This document shows, piece after piece, positions 1-23,215 of a DNA stretch of 46,172 bases. Source of the stretch: Lactobacillus sp. (lineage in GTDB: Bacteria; Bacillota; Bacilli; Lactobacillales; Lactobacillaceae); assembly GCA_030455605.1 (NCBI GenBank), contig JAKDPD010000010.1, positions 1-46,172 of the forward strand. Direction: 5' to 3'. Within the stretch, counting starts at the first letter, position 1. Each line of letters opens with the position of its first letter. The notes under the pieces are model-generated. The model saw only the letters and a list, made by a program, of their open reading frames with translations, was not told the DNA's origin and searched no databases. The position numbers and the translations under genes were made by a program.

Positions 1-440
1 CAAGTTGGCAAGCTGATTGTGCAAGCAGGCAAACAGATTAAAGTACAGCAGCAGTCTGAGGAAAGATACGATGGTATTACTCAAAAGAAAAAGGTGCCAG
101 TGCTTTATCTTGAAGGCGATGGCGTTGTGATTAAAGGCACCAAGAAGCGACTGGAATTTCATCGCTATCAAGTCTGCGAGGATATTATTAATTTAAGCAA
201 GACGCGCAGAAAGAGAGTACAGGCCAAAGAGTTTGTTTCTTTAAGCCGCTTGGATGCTTTACAAGAAATTAAAGCTTATTTAGCCAATACCTATGACTTA
301 AGCGATACTTTAATCATCAGTAATGCCGATGGCGGTGCTGGCTATGCCAAGAAAGACTTTGATGAAATAGTTGGCTATTGCCGGCAGCACGAACACTTCT
401 TAGACGTCTTCCACTTGAACAAAAAGATCAAGGACCGTTC
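1..440 (+). pseudogene. ISLre2-family (UPF0236) transposase, internal fragment
   Basis: The reading frame is open from the left edge, so the true N-terminus lies outside the window. The protein has features typical of the ISLre2/UPF0236 transposase family: a Lys-rich stretch, then VPVLYLEGDGVVIKG, a conserved ISNADGGAGY block, and DVFHLNKKIKDR near the break. After about position 437 the sequence is the antisense of a sigma-factor gene, and the frame stops at 456. The C-terminal half of the transposase is therefore missing. The element either inserted into the sigma gene and was then deleted, or recombined with it. No inverted repeat end could be recognised at the junction. The product cannot be active. 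Family assignment is from remembered motifs; the truncation is read directly. Confidence 0.8.
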
Positions 441-1340
441 CACTGCAATCAGCTGATTCAACGAGGCCGTGGCGCGAAACTGTTTGTCAATCTGCTTATA
501 GCGCTTGTATGTATGCTCATCAATCTCGAGCTCTGCGCAAATACGCTCGACGTCGACTTTTCCCTGCTTCTTGAGTTGCGCCTGTTCAAGTCTGAAGAGC
601 TTATTCAGCCTTTCCACCAGGTGTACCGGAAGGCGAATCATTGTCCCATCATTAATCAAGTTTCGCTCAATCGATTGCTTGATCCAGAACGTCGCGTAGG
701 TGGAAAGCTGAATGCCCATCTCCGGGTCAAACCGCTCAATCGCCTTCATCAGCCCTTCGTTGCCATAGCCCACCAGGTCGTCATACGTCAAACAGGTATG
801 CTTGGCGCGCATGAGGTAATGCCCGGCGACTTTTCGGACCCAGCCCTGGTTGTCTCTGAATAGATTTTCGTACACCGGATCAGTCTTATCCCGGTTTTGC
901 TGATACGCGGCAACCATTTGCGTATTGCCGGTAAAGCCACGGTCCACCGCGAAAGTTTCAAAGGTGCCGGCCTGCATCTCTGCGATTGCCTGGTCGATAT
1001 CAAAGCCTTCATCTGAGCCGGTTGGGGTATCCTGTGATCTGGTTTCTGAGGCTTGCGCGTTCGCCTCCGTGCCTGGTGCCGGGGAGACGGGTTTGGCTTT
1101 CTTCGGCGCTGTAGGCGCCATGTTGCAACTAAATCCGTTGCGCTCAAGTTCCTCCCGAAAGCCGAGGCCGGTGAAGCCAAGTGCCGGATCATTCGCAATT
1201 TGCCCCGCCTTCAGCTCATCCGCCAGCGCGGCATGAACCTGGTTAACCGAGGCGGAAATGTTGCTGCCGTCGTATCTCTCTTTCAAGTAATCCTGCCAAG
1301 TCAATTGAATCATGGTGCTACCCTGCCGTTGTGTTCTCAT
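440..1340 (-). pseudogene. Sigma-70 family RNA polymerase sigma factor, 3'-truncated
   Basis: About 300 residues survive. There is an N-terminal part of about 150 residues that I do not recognise, beginning MIQLTWQDYLKERYDG, with a Pro/Ala/Thr-rich linker. Sigma region 2 follows (LTYDDLVGYGNEGLMKAIE, then FDPEMGIQLSTYATFWIKQS) with the promoter-melting and -10 recognition elements. Region 3 follows (IRLPVHLVERLNKL) and continues to SLNQLI. From about position 440 downward the frame reads antisense through the ISLre2 fragment and stops at 375, so region 4 (the -35 binding domain) is lost. Two starts are possible: ATG at 1340, with GGGGTG five bases upstream, or ATG at 1313, with AGGG upstream. 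It has its own promoter and a structured leader with a terminator. Without region 4 it probably cannot act as a normal sigma factor, though a regulatory fragment is not excluded. Confidence 0.8.
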
Positions 1341-1360
1341 CTCATCACCCCATAGAAGTC

Positions 1361-1387
1361 AAAAAGGTCGCACACAAATGCGCGACC
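1361..1387 (-). terminator. Intrinsic terminator in the sigma-factor leader
   Basis: On the minus strand GGTCGC and GCGACC form a perfect six-pair stem around a ten-base loop and are followed at once by TTTTT. It lies after the SAM-I-like aptamer and about 20 bases before the first possible start codon at 1340. This is where an expression-platform terminator of a transcriptional riboswitch would sit. Confidence 0.75.
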
Positions 1388-1397
1388 CTCCGAGGCT

Positions 1398-1494
1398 GAT
1401 CTGCATCCGTCTATGGTGGGGCACGTTGCCTTTCGGTACGTTGCCGGTTGGTCACAGTGCATAGCCACTACCAACTCTCTTGATACATACGATC
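1398..1494 (-). ncRNA. Candidate SAM-I-clan riboswitch (P4-less variant)
   Basis: The minus-strand leader contains the signature TATCAAGAGAG (1485-1475) followed by CCGGCAAC (1447-1440), as in SAM-I aptamers. P1 pairs TGTATC (1487-1482) with GATGCA (1407-1402). P2 pairs GTTGGT (1475-1470) with ACCAAC (1452-1447), then AGTG with CACT, leaving a three-base bulge on the 3' side. P3 begins GGCA (1444-1441) and closes with TGCC. The P2 loop CTATG (1464-1460) can pair with CATAG (1415-1411) in the strand after P3, which is the pseudoknot position of SAM-I. No P4 helix fits, so it is not a canonical SAM-I. The ligand is inferred from the fold. A second pairing, CCCCACCATAGA with TCTATGGGG near the start codon, would compete with the pseudoknot. 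Confidence 0.6.
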
Positions 1495-1505
1495 TTTATT
1501 TAACT

Positions 1506-1817
1506 TCATGATACCATTTTCGGGTGATAAGTCAAGGCCGGTTGAGCAGGGGTCTTATCTGTCAAGAACCGATAATTACCCTTGTGTTTTGTCTTCAGAA
1601 GGCCTGGGATTCCTTCTTCAAGGTAACGATTCGTGAAATCGGTAATCGTTGAGGAACAGGCTTTCGTCGCTGCGGTAACAGCTTTAAAACGAGTCCCTTG
1701 GGCGCGAAGCATGACCACTTGAATGCGACGATGATCCTTGCCATCATCAGTGTATGTGCGATAAGCATCTTCTAATTCAGCGACTTGATCAGCTGTAAAT
1801 TTAAATCGATTTGACAT
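1506..1817 (-). pseudogene. IS630-family transposase, N-terminal remnant
   Basis: The first 85 or so residues form a helix-turn-helix region of the IS630/Tc1-like type (RRIQVVMLRAQGTRFKAVT, then a second helical part ending in GIPGLLKTKHKGNYRFL). The DDE catalytic domain is absent. The last 18 codons coincide with the promoter of the sigma-factor unit, so the deletion joint is probably near 1550-1560. No clear ribosome binding site precedes the ATG. The fragment could at most make a short DNA-binding peptide. Assignment to IS630 rests on the domain pattern only. Confidence 0.65.
1508..1535 (-). promoter_or_regulatory. Promoter of the riboswitch-sigma unit
   Basis: The -35 TTGACT (1535-1530) and -10 TATCAT (1513-1508) are separated by 16 bases. 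Transcription would begin near 1501, just before the P1 strand of the aptamer. The promoter lies inside the trailing reading frame of the IS630 remnant, so the IS junction is upstream of it, near 1550. Confidence 0.65.
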
Positions 1818-1876
1818 AGTTTCATTATACCGGAAAATCGCTTGCTTTTCAGTAGAGTTTAACTATGCGTTAGTGT

Positions 1877-1956
1877 AAAATCCCCGCCAGTCCAGCCCTT
1901 ATTCGGCCCAAACTTGGCGGGGATTTTGGCGGGGAACGCAATAATTTCCCCGCCAA
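1877..1956. terminator. Double GC-rich hairpin downstream of guaA
   Basis: Four copies of a CCCCGCCA/TGGCGGGG unit occur in 80 bases. AAAATCCCCGCCA (1877-1889) pairs with TGGCGGGGATTTT (1915-1927), and TTGGCGGGGAA (1926-1936) pairs with TTCCCCGCCAA. The two hairpins share bases, and the arms can re-pair among themselves. On the minus strand the outer hairpin ends in TTTT about 150 bases after guaA, so it can terminate guaA transcripts. It also separates guaA from the mobile-element remnants. Confidence 0.6.
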
Positions 1957-2023
1957 TCGTATCCTTTGCATCTCCCGAAAATGCCGTCAAATCAACATTC
2001 CGGGTTCAATTTACATGTACCTT

Positions 2024-3574
2024 TTATTCCCACTCAATTGTTGCAGGTGGCTTGGAGGTAATATCATAAACCACGCGGTTCACATGATCCACTTCATCCA
2101 CAATCCGAGTTGAAATCTTACTGAGCACCGGCCATGGCAACTGGGCAAAATCAGCCGTCATCCCATCAATGGAAGTGACTGCCCGAATGCCAATCGTATA
2201 GTCATACGTCCGACCATCACCCATGACGCCGACAGAACGAATCCCTGGCAGCACCGTGAAGTATTGCCAGACTTTTTCTTGCAGGCCAGCTTGTTTAATC
2301 TCATCCCGCAGAATGGCATCACTCTCACGCACAATTGCTAACTTGTCAGGCGTGACTTCGCCAATGACCCGAATCCCTAAACCAGGGCCAGGAAACGGCT
2401 GCCGCCAGACTAAATCATGCGGAATCCCGAGCTTCTCGCCCAGTTCACGCACTTCATCCTTGAATAGCTTACGCAGGGGTTCAATCAACTTGAAATGCAT
2501 GTCTTTGGGTAAACCACCGACGTTATGGTGCGACTTAATCTTCCGCGCCGTGTTCGTGCCGCTTTCAATCACATCGGTATAGAGCGTGCCTTGGGCTAAG
2601 AAATCGACATCGTGCATTTTCAGCGCTTCTTCATTGAAGACCTCCACAAATTCACGCCCAATAATCTTACGCTTCCGTTCTGGATCCGTTACACCGGCCA
2701 GCTTAGATAGAAAACGCTCAGCCGCATCCACCCGGATAATATTCACCCCGAGGTCACGGTTTAAAGCGGCCATGACTTGGTCGCCCTCGTCTTTACGTAG
2801 CATCCCATGATCGACAAAAATCGCGGTCAACTGGTTGCCAATTGCGCGGTGCAATAAGGTTGCGGTGACACTAGAATCAACGCCGCCCGAGAGGCCTAAG
2901 ATGACCTTTTTATCGCCAACTTCCTTGCGAATGGCGGCAATCTGTAAGTCGATGAAATCGCTCATCGACCAGTTAGCTTTCGCGCCGCACACGTCAAACG
3001 CAAACCGCTTCAAGATATCTAAACCATACTCACTGTTACGCACTTCCGCATGGAATTGAATCCCGTATTGGCGCTTCGCCTCATTGGCAATAATCGCAAT
3101 CGGACAATTATGGCTGGAAGCAACCACGCTAAAGCCTTTTGGAGCGGCCGTGACCAAATCACCATGGCTCATCCAGACAAATTGCTCAGCCGGTAAGCCC
3201 TTCACGATTGGTGAAGCGGCATCTTCAATGGCGAGCTTAGCGCGGCCATATTCTGAATTTGCAGCGGGCTCAACTTTGCCGCCCAAGTTATAGGACATCA
3301 GTTGCATCCCGTAGCAAATTCCTAAAATTGGAATCCCCAAGTCATAGATTGCGGGATCCACCCGTAACGCACCTTGATCATACACACTATTAGGTCCGCC
3401 CGAAAAAATAATCCCTTTAGGATGGATTGCTTTAATCTTAGCCAGACTTAAGTCGTGTGGTAATAATTCAGAATAAATGCCAAAATCACGCAGCCGCCGG
3501 GTAATCAATTGGTTATATTGACTCCCGAAGTCGAGCACGATGATTTTGTCAAAATCGTTCAGATTCTTAGCCAC
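2024..3574 (-). CDS. guaA: GMP synthase (glutamine-hydrolysing)
   Basis: It converts XMP to GMP with ATP and glutamine, the last step of guanine nucleotide synthesis, in the cytoplasm. The 516 residues are full length. Residues 1-200 are a class I amidotransferase with nucleophile Cys in GICYGMQLM and a His/Glu pair in [12 protein letters not shown]. The PP-loop [17 protein letters not shown] follows near residue 230. The C-terminal dimerisation domain contains [13 protein letters not shown] and ends KPPATIEWE. The start is GTG with AAAGGAGAG five bases upstream. It is monocistronic, with its own promoter at 3611-3639, and is divergent from xpt-pbuX. The XMP-making partner guaB lies elsewhere in the window (35186-36328). 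Confidence 0.97.
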
Positions 3575-3714: not shown

Positions 3715-3729
3715 GAGGTTGATTTGAAA

Positions 3730-3859
3730 ATAACTTATATATAATCGAAATAGGGTCGATTGTTTCTACTCGTTACCGTAAATAACGAACTATAAGGGCT
3801 ATCAGAATGTTCGTCATCGGCTGATTTTCTCCTTATAGGATGGAAATCAGCCGTTTTTT
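3730..3859 (+). ncRNA. Purine riboswitch (guanine type) with terminator
   Basis: The aptamer shows P1 strands CTTATA and TATAAG, the core TATATAATCG, AATAGGG, GTTTCTACTCG and CCGTAAATAACGAACTATAAG. The specificity base in the final J3/1 segment (AACTATAA) is C, which predicts guanine or hypoxanthine rather than adenine. The terminator follows: CGGCTGATTT (3818-3827) pairs with AAATCAGCCG (3844-3853), then TTTTTT. CTATAAGG (3790-3797) can instead pair with CCTTATAG (3831-3838) as antiterminator. Guanine binding should therefore stop transcription before xpt. Confidence 0.9.
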
Positions 3860-23002: not shown

Positions 23003-23215
23003 AAAAAAGCCACTCACATTACTGTAAGTGGCCCCAAGCCAAATAAGGCTAGTAACTAGTCGTTCAGTTTTAACACTACGTGACGTAAGCACATGCTAGC
23101 TATCTGAATCTCGCCTTAAATCGACGAGACCTTTTTAACCCGTTGGCATCTCTGGATGTTTCCGGGCGATAGCGTGTGTTCACGTAGGAGTCTCACCTAA
23201 CAGTTCATTTGCTTA
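23003..23215 (-). ncRNA. M-box (ykoK) magnesium riboswitch with terminator
   Basis: On the minus strand the hallmark segments occur in order: GTTAGGTGAGACTCCTACGTG, shown by the complement at 23181-23201; GCCCGGAAAC (23167-23158); GATGCCAACGGGTTAA (23152-23136 area); then GGTCTCG and CGAGA arms. The terminator hairpin GCCACT (23009-23014) with AGTGGC (23026-23031) and a six-U run precedes the ATPase gene. Mg2+ binding is expected to favour termination. Confidence 0.92.

Follow-up and report, generated by a model that had tools for sequence, protein, structure and literature searches.

A divergent SAM-I-type leader RNA lacking P4 precedes an unusual set of genes in Lactobacillaceae

On the minus strand of a 46,172-nucleotide stretch of Lactobacillus DNA (hereafter, the window) lies a leader RNA that, judged by its sequence and by the covariation of its helices, is a divergent, P4-less relative of the SAM-I (S-box) riboswitch and a member of the SAM-I clan. 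In the window, this RNA is intact and stands before a broken sigma factor gene between transposase remnants. The subtype to which it belongs scores below the Rfam threshold and extends from leaders of metK to about fifty others that lack a recognised sulfur gene as their first gene; its targets include a sigma/helicase pair beside Wadjet-type genes and a Pbe-like operon, and we regard the leader as a divergent SAM-I type with an unusual, testable set of targets. If SAM is the ligand, the SAM level at these loci would serve as a cue for some purpose other than SAM supply, and for the small proteins encoded downstream one could predict when they are induced, a prediction open to test in laboratory strains.

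An intact leader before a truncated sigma gene

The first-pass annotation had described a complete unit of promoter, P1-P2-P3 RNA with a CTATG/CATAG pseudoknot, terminator, ribosome site and sigma-70 gene. All of the RNA and signal elements are present in the sequence (Table 1), including a ribosome site (GGGGTGATGAG) upstream of the ATG at 1340 on the minus strand, but the gene itself is incomplete: the open reading frame at 375-1340 (minus strand) retains sigma-70 region 2 and lacks region 4 (Pfam), being cut at about position 447. Its product is 55% identical over residues 3-298 to the intact sigma factor of a related locus, L056, the closest uncut homologue detected, and this homology likewise ends at about position 447, near a UPF0236 transposase fragment that we take to be of the ISLre2 type. 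On the other side of the leader, homology between the window and L056 starts at 1513, inside a truncated transposase-like ORF (as placed by the end of the blastn match). Because the window's sigma gene is truncated, L056, with its intact gene, is the one locus for which the envisaged link from SAM level to promoter choice can still be put forward.

Table 1. Coordinates of the leader and its neighbouring features in the window.
Feature	Position	Strand	Basis
UPF0236 transposase fragment at contig end, cutting the sigma gene	1..456	+	Pfam PF06782
Truncated sigma-70 family gene retaining about 298 codons	447..1340	-	Pfam PF04542 region 2, E 1.3e-11; region 4 lost
Possible anti-SD segment (about 1399-1392) with SD region UAUGGGGUGAUGAG (1354-1341)	1341..1399	-	-9.7 kcal/mol in window
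Intrinsic terminator with T tract	1361..1390	-	-17.8 kcal/mol, z -5.5, 0/200 shuffles as good
Proposed antiterminator: terminator 5' arm and loop pairing with the P1 3' strand and the bases after it (from 1407)	1375..1407	-	-11.6 kcal/mol in window
P4-less SAM-I-like aptamer, 90 nt	1400..1489	-	RF00162 34.1 bits; own model R1 105.5 bits (window itself among R1's 32 training rows)
P1: UGUAUC (1487-1482) with GAUGCA (1407-1402)	1402..1487	-	Covariation
Pseudoknot: P2 loop CUAUG (1464-1460) with CAUAG (1415-1411) in J3	1411..1464	-	Pairing kept in homologues
P3 with asymmetric loop (GGCAACGU...ACGUGCC)	1420..1445	-	Covariation in alignment
P2 GUUGG/CCAAC, K-turn-like internal loop, P2b GUG/CAC	1447..1475	-	Covariation
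Truncated HTH, transposase-like ORF upstream of leader	1506..1817	-	Pfam HTH_28/HTH_23
Promoter: -35 TTGACT (1535-1530), -10 TATCAT (1513-1508), 16-nt spacer	1508..1535	-	Consensus scan, 10/12 matches

Folded alone, the aptamer (1489-1400) takes P1/P2/P3 as its minimum-energy structure, and folding energies are unremarkable (z -0.96 for the 191-nt leader; z -1.5 for the aptamer, with 16 of 200 shuffles as good). At the K-turn position in P2, the 3' GA is kept in the window and the 5' side reads UA, with GA in some relatives. A pairing of UCUAUGGGGUG with CCACCAUAGA, spotted by eye in the window, was dropped because it is absent from L056. The window holds further RNA matches: one to the Listeria sRNA rli38 at 1874-2038 (minus strand; 52.6 bits, threshold 49), just downstream of a GMP synthase gene, as well as a purine riboswitch at 3715-3812 (plus strand) and an M-box riboswitch at 23048-23211 (minus strand), both above the Rfam threshold.

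Match to SAM-I and covariation among homologues

At the gathering threshold, Rfam called nothing at the leader. A relaxed search of 701 bases returned RF00162 (SAM) at 34.1 bits and E 7.9e-6, short of the gathering score of 44.4; the identical match had an E-value of 0.00066 in a 58.8-kb search. This SAM-clan family (CL00012) was the best Rfam match, two weaker overlaps from the same clan being set aside, and the likeness to the SAM-I clan proposed by the first-pass annotation is thereby upheld at a relaxed cutoff. When 19 of the 20 homologous loci L036-L055 were searched, 12 yielded a total of 15 RF00162 matches, all sub-threshold, and seven were without a match at E<=1. In the genome search and in these 19 loci alike, all RF00162 matches of non-metK leaders fell short of the gathering threshold. 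The genome search with RF00162 missed the window's own leader, and its counts are therefore lower bounds; the homologue searches described next likewise overlook some leaders.

Homologous leaders were initially found by similarity and by pattern. With the leader as blastn query, 21 of 397 Lactobacillaceae genomes match (the window's own among them), and a pattern built on P3 recovered 33 stretches from the genome collection, of which 29 lie in Lactobacillaceae genera and four (from Chloroflexi, two Gammaproteobacteria and Paenibacillus) were dropped as chance matches, in addition to one duplicate that was removed. The 32-row alignment gathered in these two ways served to build a covariance model, R1, which detects leaders, metK types included, in 99 of the 397 Lactobacillaceae genomes at E<=0.001 and in 32 of 395 genomes across the order at E<=1e-4; the latter include five from another family, with R1 matches of 61-74 bits before short ORFs. 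Leader patterns were not found in viral contigs, nor did phage records match the leader at E<=1, and a single plasmid among 72,556, a conjugative one from L. plantarum, matches at that cutoff. Leaders and small-protein genes also occur as tandem units (L069 13670-12173, L068 13403-13068, L073 5979-6447, L162 1873-4211), with three leaders within about 1.5 kb in L069.

The helices are supported by compensatory change in both alignments. In the 32-row alignment, 95.2% of cells are paired, as against 26-46% with partners slid, and 12 of 29 pairs have changed on both sides. The larger alignment of 79 matches comprises 52 non-metK leaders (three of which, L095, one of L162 and one of L068, have an unclear downstream gene), 22 metK leaders and five unassigned ones; here 93.8% of cells are paired (32-41% when slid), and 465 cells show a double change, compared with a mean of 155 in shuffles. 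Changes on both sides affect three of the seven P1 pairs in the smaller alignment and five of the seven in the larger, and four of the five outer P2 pairs in both. Because the 32 rows were gathered by blastn and the P3 pattern, the invariance of GCAACGUAC/GCAACGUGC among them is partly due to selection; leaders found by R1 are less bound by that pattern, and among the 52 non-metK leaders, P3 pair 48-55 is G-C in 35 and its reverse, C-G, in the other 17. The pseudoknot, which lies outside model R1, is paired in all 260 cells of the 52 non-metK leaders and takes eight sequence forms, the commonest being CTATG/CATAG, TTACA/TGTAA, CTACA/TGTAG, CTACG/CGTAG and TACCA/TGGTA; in metK leaders it is paired in 97 of 110 cells. 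The covariation of helices and pseudoknot thus agrees with what had been predicted from the window alone.

The conserved nucleotides of SAM-I were placed on the leader alignment by a partly assumed correspondence. For 15 positions of a published list (PMC3764141, excerpted text; U4 and the P2 positions of the list fall outside the tally), 14 are invariant in 52 of 52 non-metK leaders: A6, U7, G11, A12, G43, C44, A45, C47, G56, U57, G58, C59, A87 and U88. The fifteenth, A61 of J3/4, is C in 43 and U in nine of them, and A62 is C. Among the 22 metK leaders, A45 differs in one, C-G replaces G43-C59 in 16, A61 is kept in 15 and A62 in 11. Position 46 is G in five of the 22 metK leaders and in two of the 52 others (L056 and L163), which are the two leaders that precede intact defence-like operons.

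The interval J3/1 measures 11-12 nt in the 52 non-metK leaders, too short for P4. The absence of P4 had been taken to suggest a variant class, and the absence itself is confirmed; by itself, however, P4 loss does not mark a new class, because the gap between P3 and P1 is also only 9-13 nt in the 22 metK leaders.

Genes downstream of the leaders

That a sigma gene follows the leader, as first noted in the window, holds for a minority: two of the 52 non-metK leaders (those of the window and L056) precede a sigma gene, and one (L163) precedes a protein with a sigma region-4 domain. The aptamers of the window and L056 are 97.8% identical and their sigma genes 66% identical. At L056, the leader is followed by a sigma factor of 407 aa with regions 2 and 4 and by an SF2 helicase of 1114 aa, and this unit stands directly after JetC and JetD (Wadjet) genes (PADLOC). 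Among four L056 proteins scanned, the sigma factor alone matched a component of the Mza defence system, MzaA, in its C-terminal part. N-terminal sequence of the sigma factor is present in three of 397 genomes, and in the third pair, L225, the sigma factor is 44% and the helicase 57% identical. R1 found no leader at L225 or at the plasmid loci L227, L004 and L005, and the leader is therefore an optional part of the sigma/helicase unit. Exact-peptide seeds from the sigma protein recovered no relative in the genome and viral contig collections; for the genome contigs at least, this null is a miss of the seeds, because L056 exists.

A second operon of this kind is found at L224, which has the same leader as L163: the leader precedes a 1146-aa protein with a sigma region-4 domain, followed by a 455-aa helicase, a 680-aa SMC-like ATPase and a 157-aa protein. 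Homologues of the helicase and the ATPase on the L. plantarum plasmid are PbeA and PbeC (PADLOC). The plasmid has no leader upstream of its Pbe-like operon and carries one just after the operon, before a 107-aa ORF. We also observed that on the L. plantarum plasmid (L223 1895-5956) the 1147-aa protein is preceded by two tandem 93-residue ORFs that duplicate its beginning and occupy the place that the leader has in L224.

Most of the other non-metK leaders precede small orphan proteins of about 60-235 aa (picked by script), and directly downstream of the non-metK leaders there is no recognised SAM pathway gene. The small proteins fall into clusters of 23, 16, 4, 3 and 2 members plus singletons, duplicates and a few doubtful picks included. 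When 43 of them were scanned at E<=0.01, no Pfam or NCBIfam family was shared by two proteins, and the strongest isolated match had an E-value of 7e-5. The AlphaFold models made for the two main families (pLDDT 94 and 86) consist mostly of helices and have no PDB match at E<=0.001; similarity between these families is weak (hhalign probability 7%, E 0.005). A short motif is shared, scoring 180.6 against a mean of 151.8 and a maximum of 159.7 over 12 shuffles, in a set that holds related pairs; in an initial run, the motif score of 155.9 did not exceed that of its shuffles (maximum 158.1). The recurring motif, of the type P-x-[SN]-[WYLM]-A-x-[SA]-[LM]-A, can be seen in small proteins of different clusters (L075, L089, L109, L228 and L232-L234) and is not convincingly present in the sigma N-termini. 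At L064, L059, L069 and L164, a second small ORF follows the first; it starts MSKPRSKRKHR or MSKKRSKRKQN and has an acidic tail.

Ligand, switching and relation to known systems

The series of leaders runs from the non-metK group to leaders before metK, the gene for SAM synthetase. Leaders L154 and L165 (70.6 and 58.3 bits, respectively, under R1) precede S-adenosylmethionine synthetase genes, as do L170 and L173 (all by Pfam), and the remaining metK leaders were assigned by eye from protein sequence. L154 and L165 have the same J3/4 form as the non-metK leaders, and the TACCA/TGGTA pseudoknot is common to the non-metK leaders L143 and L149 and to metK leaders. Spermidine-binding variants of SAM-I alter J1/2 and the P3 loop (PMC10853860, excerpted text); in the 52 non-metK leaders J1/2 (AGA) and the P3 core are as in SAM-I, with no spermidine-class alteration. 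Since the SAM-I core is kept, metK is associated and changes of the spermidine class are absent, SAM is likely to be the ligand of the non-metK leaders.

In 42 of 46 distinct leaders, pairing of the 3' strand of P1 with the 5' arm of its own terminator is better than the average over the arms of the other leaders, a result that 2000 permutations never equalled. The two elements change together, as evident from GAUGCA with UGCAUUU in Lacticaseibacillus and AUUCU with AGAAU in L073. Pairing between the linker and the Shine-Dalgarno region is clear in several leaders and weak overall, the own partner being better in 28 of 46 (seven of 2000 permutations as good). These comparisons used 46 of 58 leaders, leaving out nine duplicates, one metK leader and two without a trusted gene, and gene starts were picked by a rough script. 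We consider it highly probable that the leader is a SAM-sensing OFF switch: when SAM is plentiful, P1 and the pseudoknot would be stabilised, the terminator would form and the gene would be off, and when SAM falls, the 3' strand of P1 would instead pair with the terminator arm and allow transcription to continue, with an anti-SD helix perhaps adding translational control in some leaders. The leader would then belong to a set of switch-and-gene units in Lactobacillales, and our leading guess for why such genes might respond to low SAM is SAM stress linked to infection or methylation.

For the window's own genome, it is rather probable that leader and cut sigma gene are an inactive relic that mobile DNA brought in and transposase elements disrupted, which is compatible with a SAM-sensing OFF switch in the relatives. 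Sigma region 4 is lost at the transposase fragment, the genome (86% complete, 47 contigs) has no good match to the partner helicase (best E 9.5e-7), and the segment has a GC content of 52.8% as against a mean of 44.8% in the rest of the window (sd 2.5%, maximum 52.0%, 78 windows); yet the RNA is intact, with promoter and terminator present, and a sigma fragment with region 2 alone might still act. The leader could also be a mobile DNA repeat, such as a transposon end, rather than an RNA, since near-identical copies precede unrelated genes and copies stand in tandem in L069, L073 and L068, but compensatory changes in helices and pseudoknot, the matching of each leader to its own terminator and the metK association render this extremely improbable. 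A changed ligand on a SAM-I scaffold, for which the spermidine class provides a precedent (PMC10853860, excerpted text), would have the non-metK group sense another metabolite, and fits both the replacement of the J3/4 AA by pyrimidine-C in 52 of 52 leaders and downstream genes without a known tie to SAM synthesis. Against this stand the invariance of the remaining 14 tallied core positions and the occurrence of the same J3/4 form before metK in L154 and L165, and we judge such a change of ligand unlikely.

Some loci adjoin restriction-modification genes, i.e., a D12 methylase and FokI (L079), HsdR (L155), GmrSD (L064) and an Eco57I-type methylase (L072), as would be expected if the switch guarded restriction-modification, with low SAM denoting unmethylated host DNA and the small proteins or the sigma operon damping or retuning restriction. 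However, several loci lie in ordinary surroundings, judged by eye, and a PADLOC scan at E<=1e-20 (ORFs cut at 400 aa) detected no overall excess of defence genes, with 52 families both in the leader set (140 ORFs near 45 loci, of 142 in the range used and 191 in a wider range) and in the control (40 regions drawn at random from the same genomes, with 140 of their 206 ORFs), the ranges being not quite equal. Among the matches listed, which cover 25 of the 52 families in each set, the leader set has REase_I, II and III, several MTase_II and PbeA, and the control has type III Cas genes, AbiEi and RT_UG29; an excess of restriction-modification genes near leaders is only suggested, and a role in guarding restriction is, in our estimate, improbable. 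Because two defence-like operons stand under the switch and phage T3 makes a SAM-destroying enzyme first (PMC8406200, excerpted text), one can also imagine an alarm, in which mobile cassettes use the P4-less SAM-I switch to free expression of a sigma/helicase pair, a Pbe-like operon or a small helical protein in response to falling SAM in the course of phage attack or to a failure of DNA methylation. An anti-restriction role of the T3 enzyme is described as refuted for T3 in the same excerpted source (PMC8406200). We hold the alarm to be doubtful; if true, it would place immunity or restriction control under a metabolite riboswitch.

Published accounts of SAM-I riboswitches name SAM, methionine, cysteine and other sulfur genes as their targets (PMC10853860, excerpted text), and among the matches listed, the titles and abstract openings of a mostly open literature report no SAM-I-type leader before sigma, helicase or defence genes. 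With SAM-I/S-box (RF00162) the leader shares the order P1-P2-P3, the AGAG of J1/2, the P3 core, the P2-loop pseudoknot and the predicted OFF logic through a terminator; unlike it, the leader has no P4, has lost the J3/4 AA, scores under the gathering threshold and precedes a target not recognised as a sulfur gene. The P4-less SAM-I leaders of metK in Lactobacillaceae have the same P4-less layout and pseudoknot, and two of them (L154, L165) the same J3/4 form, but they differ from the non-metK leaders in their SAM synthetase target and in the frequent presence of A61, A62 and C-G in place of G43-C59. The spermidine riboswitch is likewise a termination OFF switch on a SAM-I scaffold (PMC10853860, excerpted text), from which the leaders differ by an unchanged J1/2 and P3 loop and by the absence of P4. 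Plasmid pairs of a sigma-70 factor and a DEAD/DEAH helicase (L003/L227, L004) have the two-gene order of L056 but no R1 leader; in one of them (L003 3431-4804), the sigma factor beside the helicase carries a DpnI_C (Dam-replacing HTH) domain, a possible link to methylation sensing. The SMK box (SAM-III) is, like the leader, a SAM sensor of lactic acid bacteria, with a structure unrelated to that of the SAM-I-type leader. Because metK of L. paracasei is reported to use an SMK box (PMC6004538, excerpted text), some Lacticaseibacillus may possess two types of SAM RNA.
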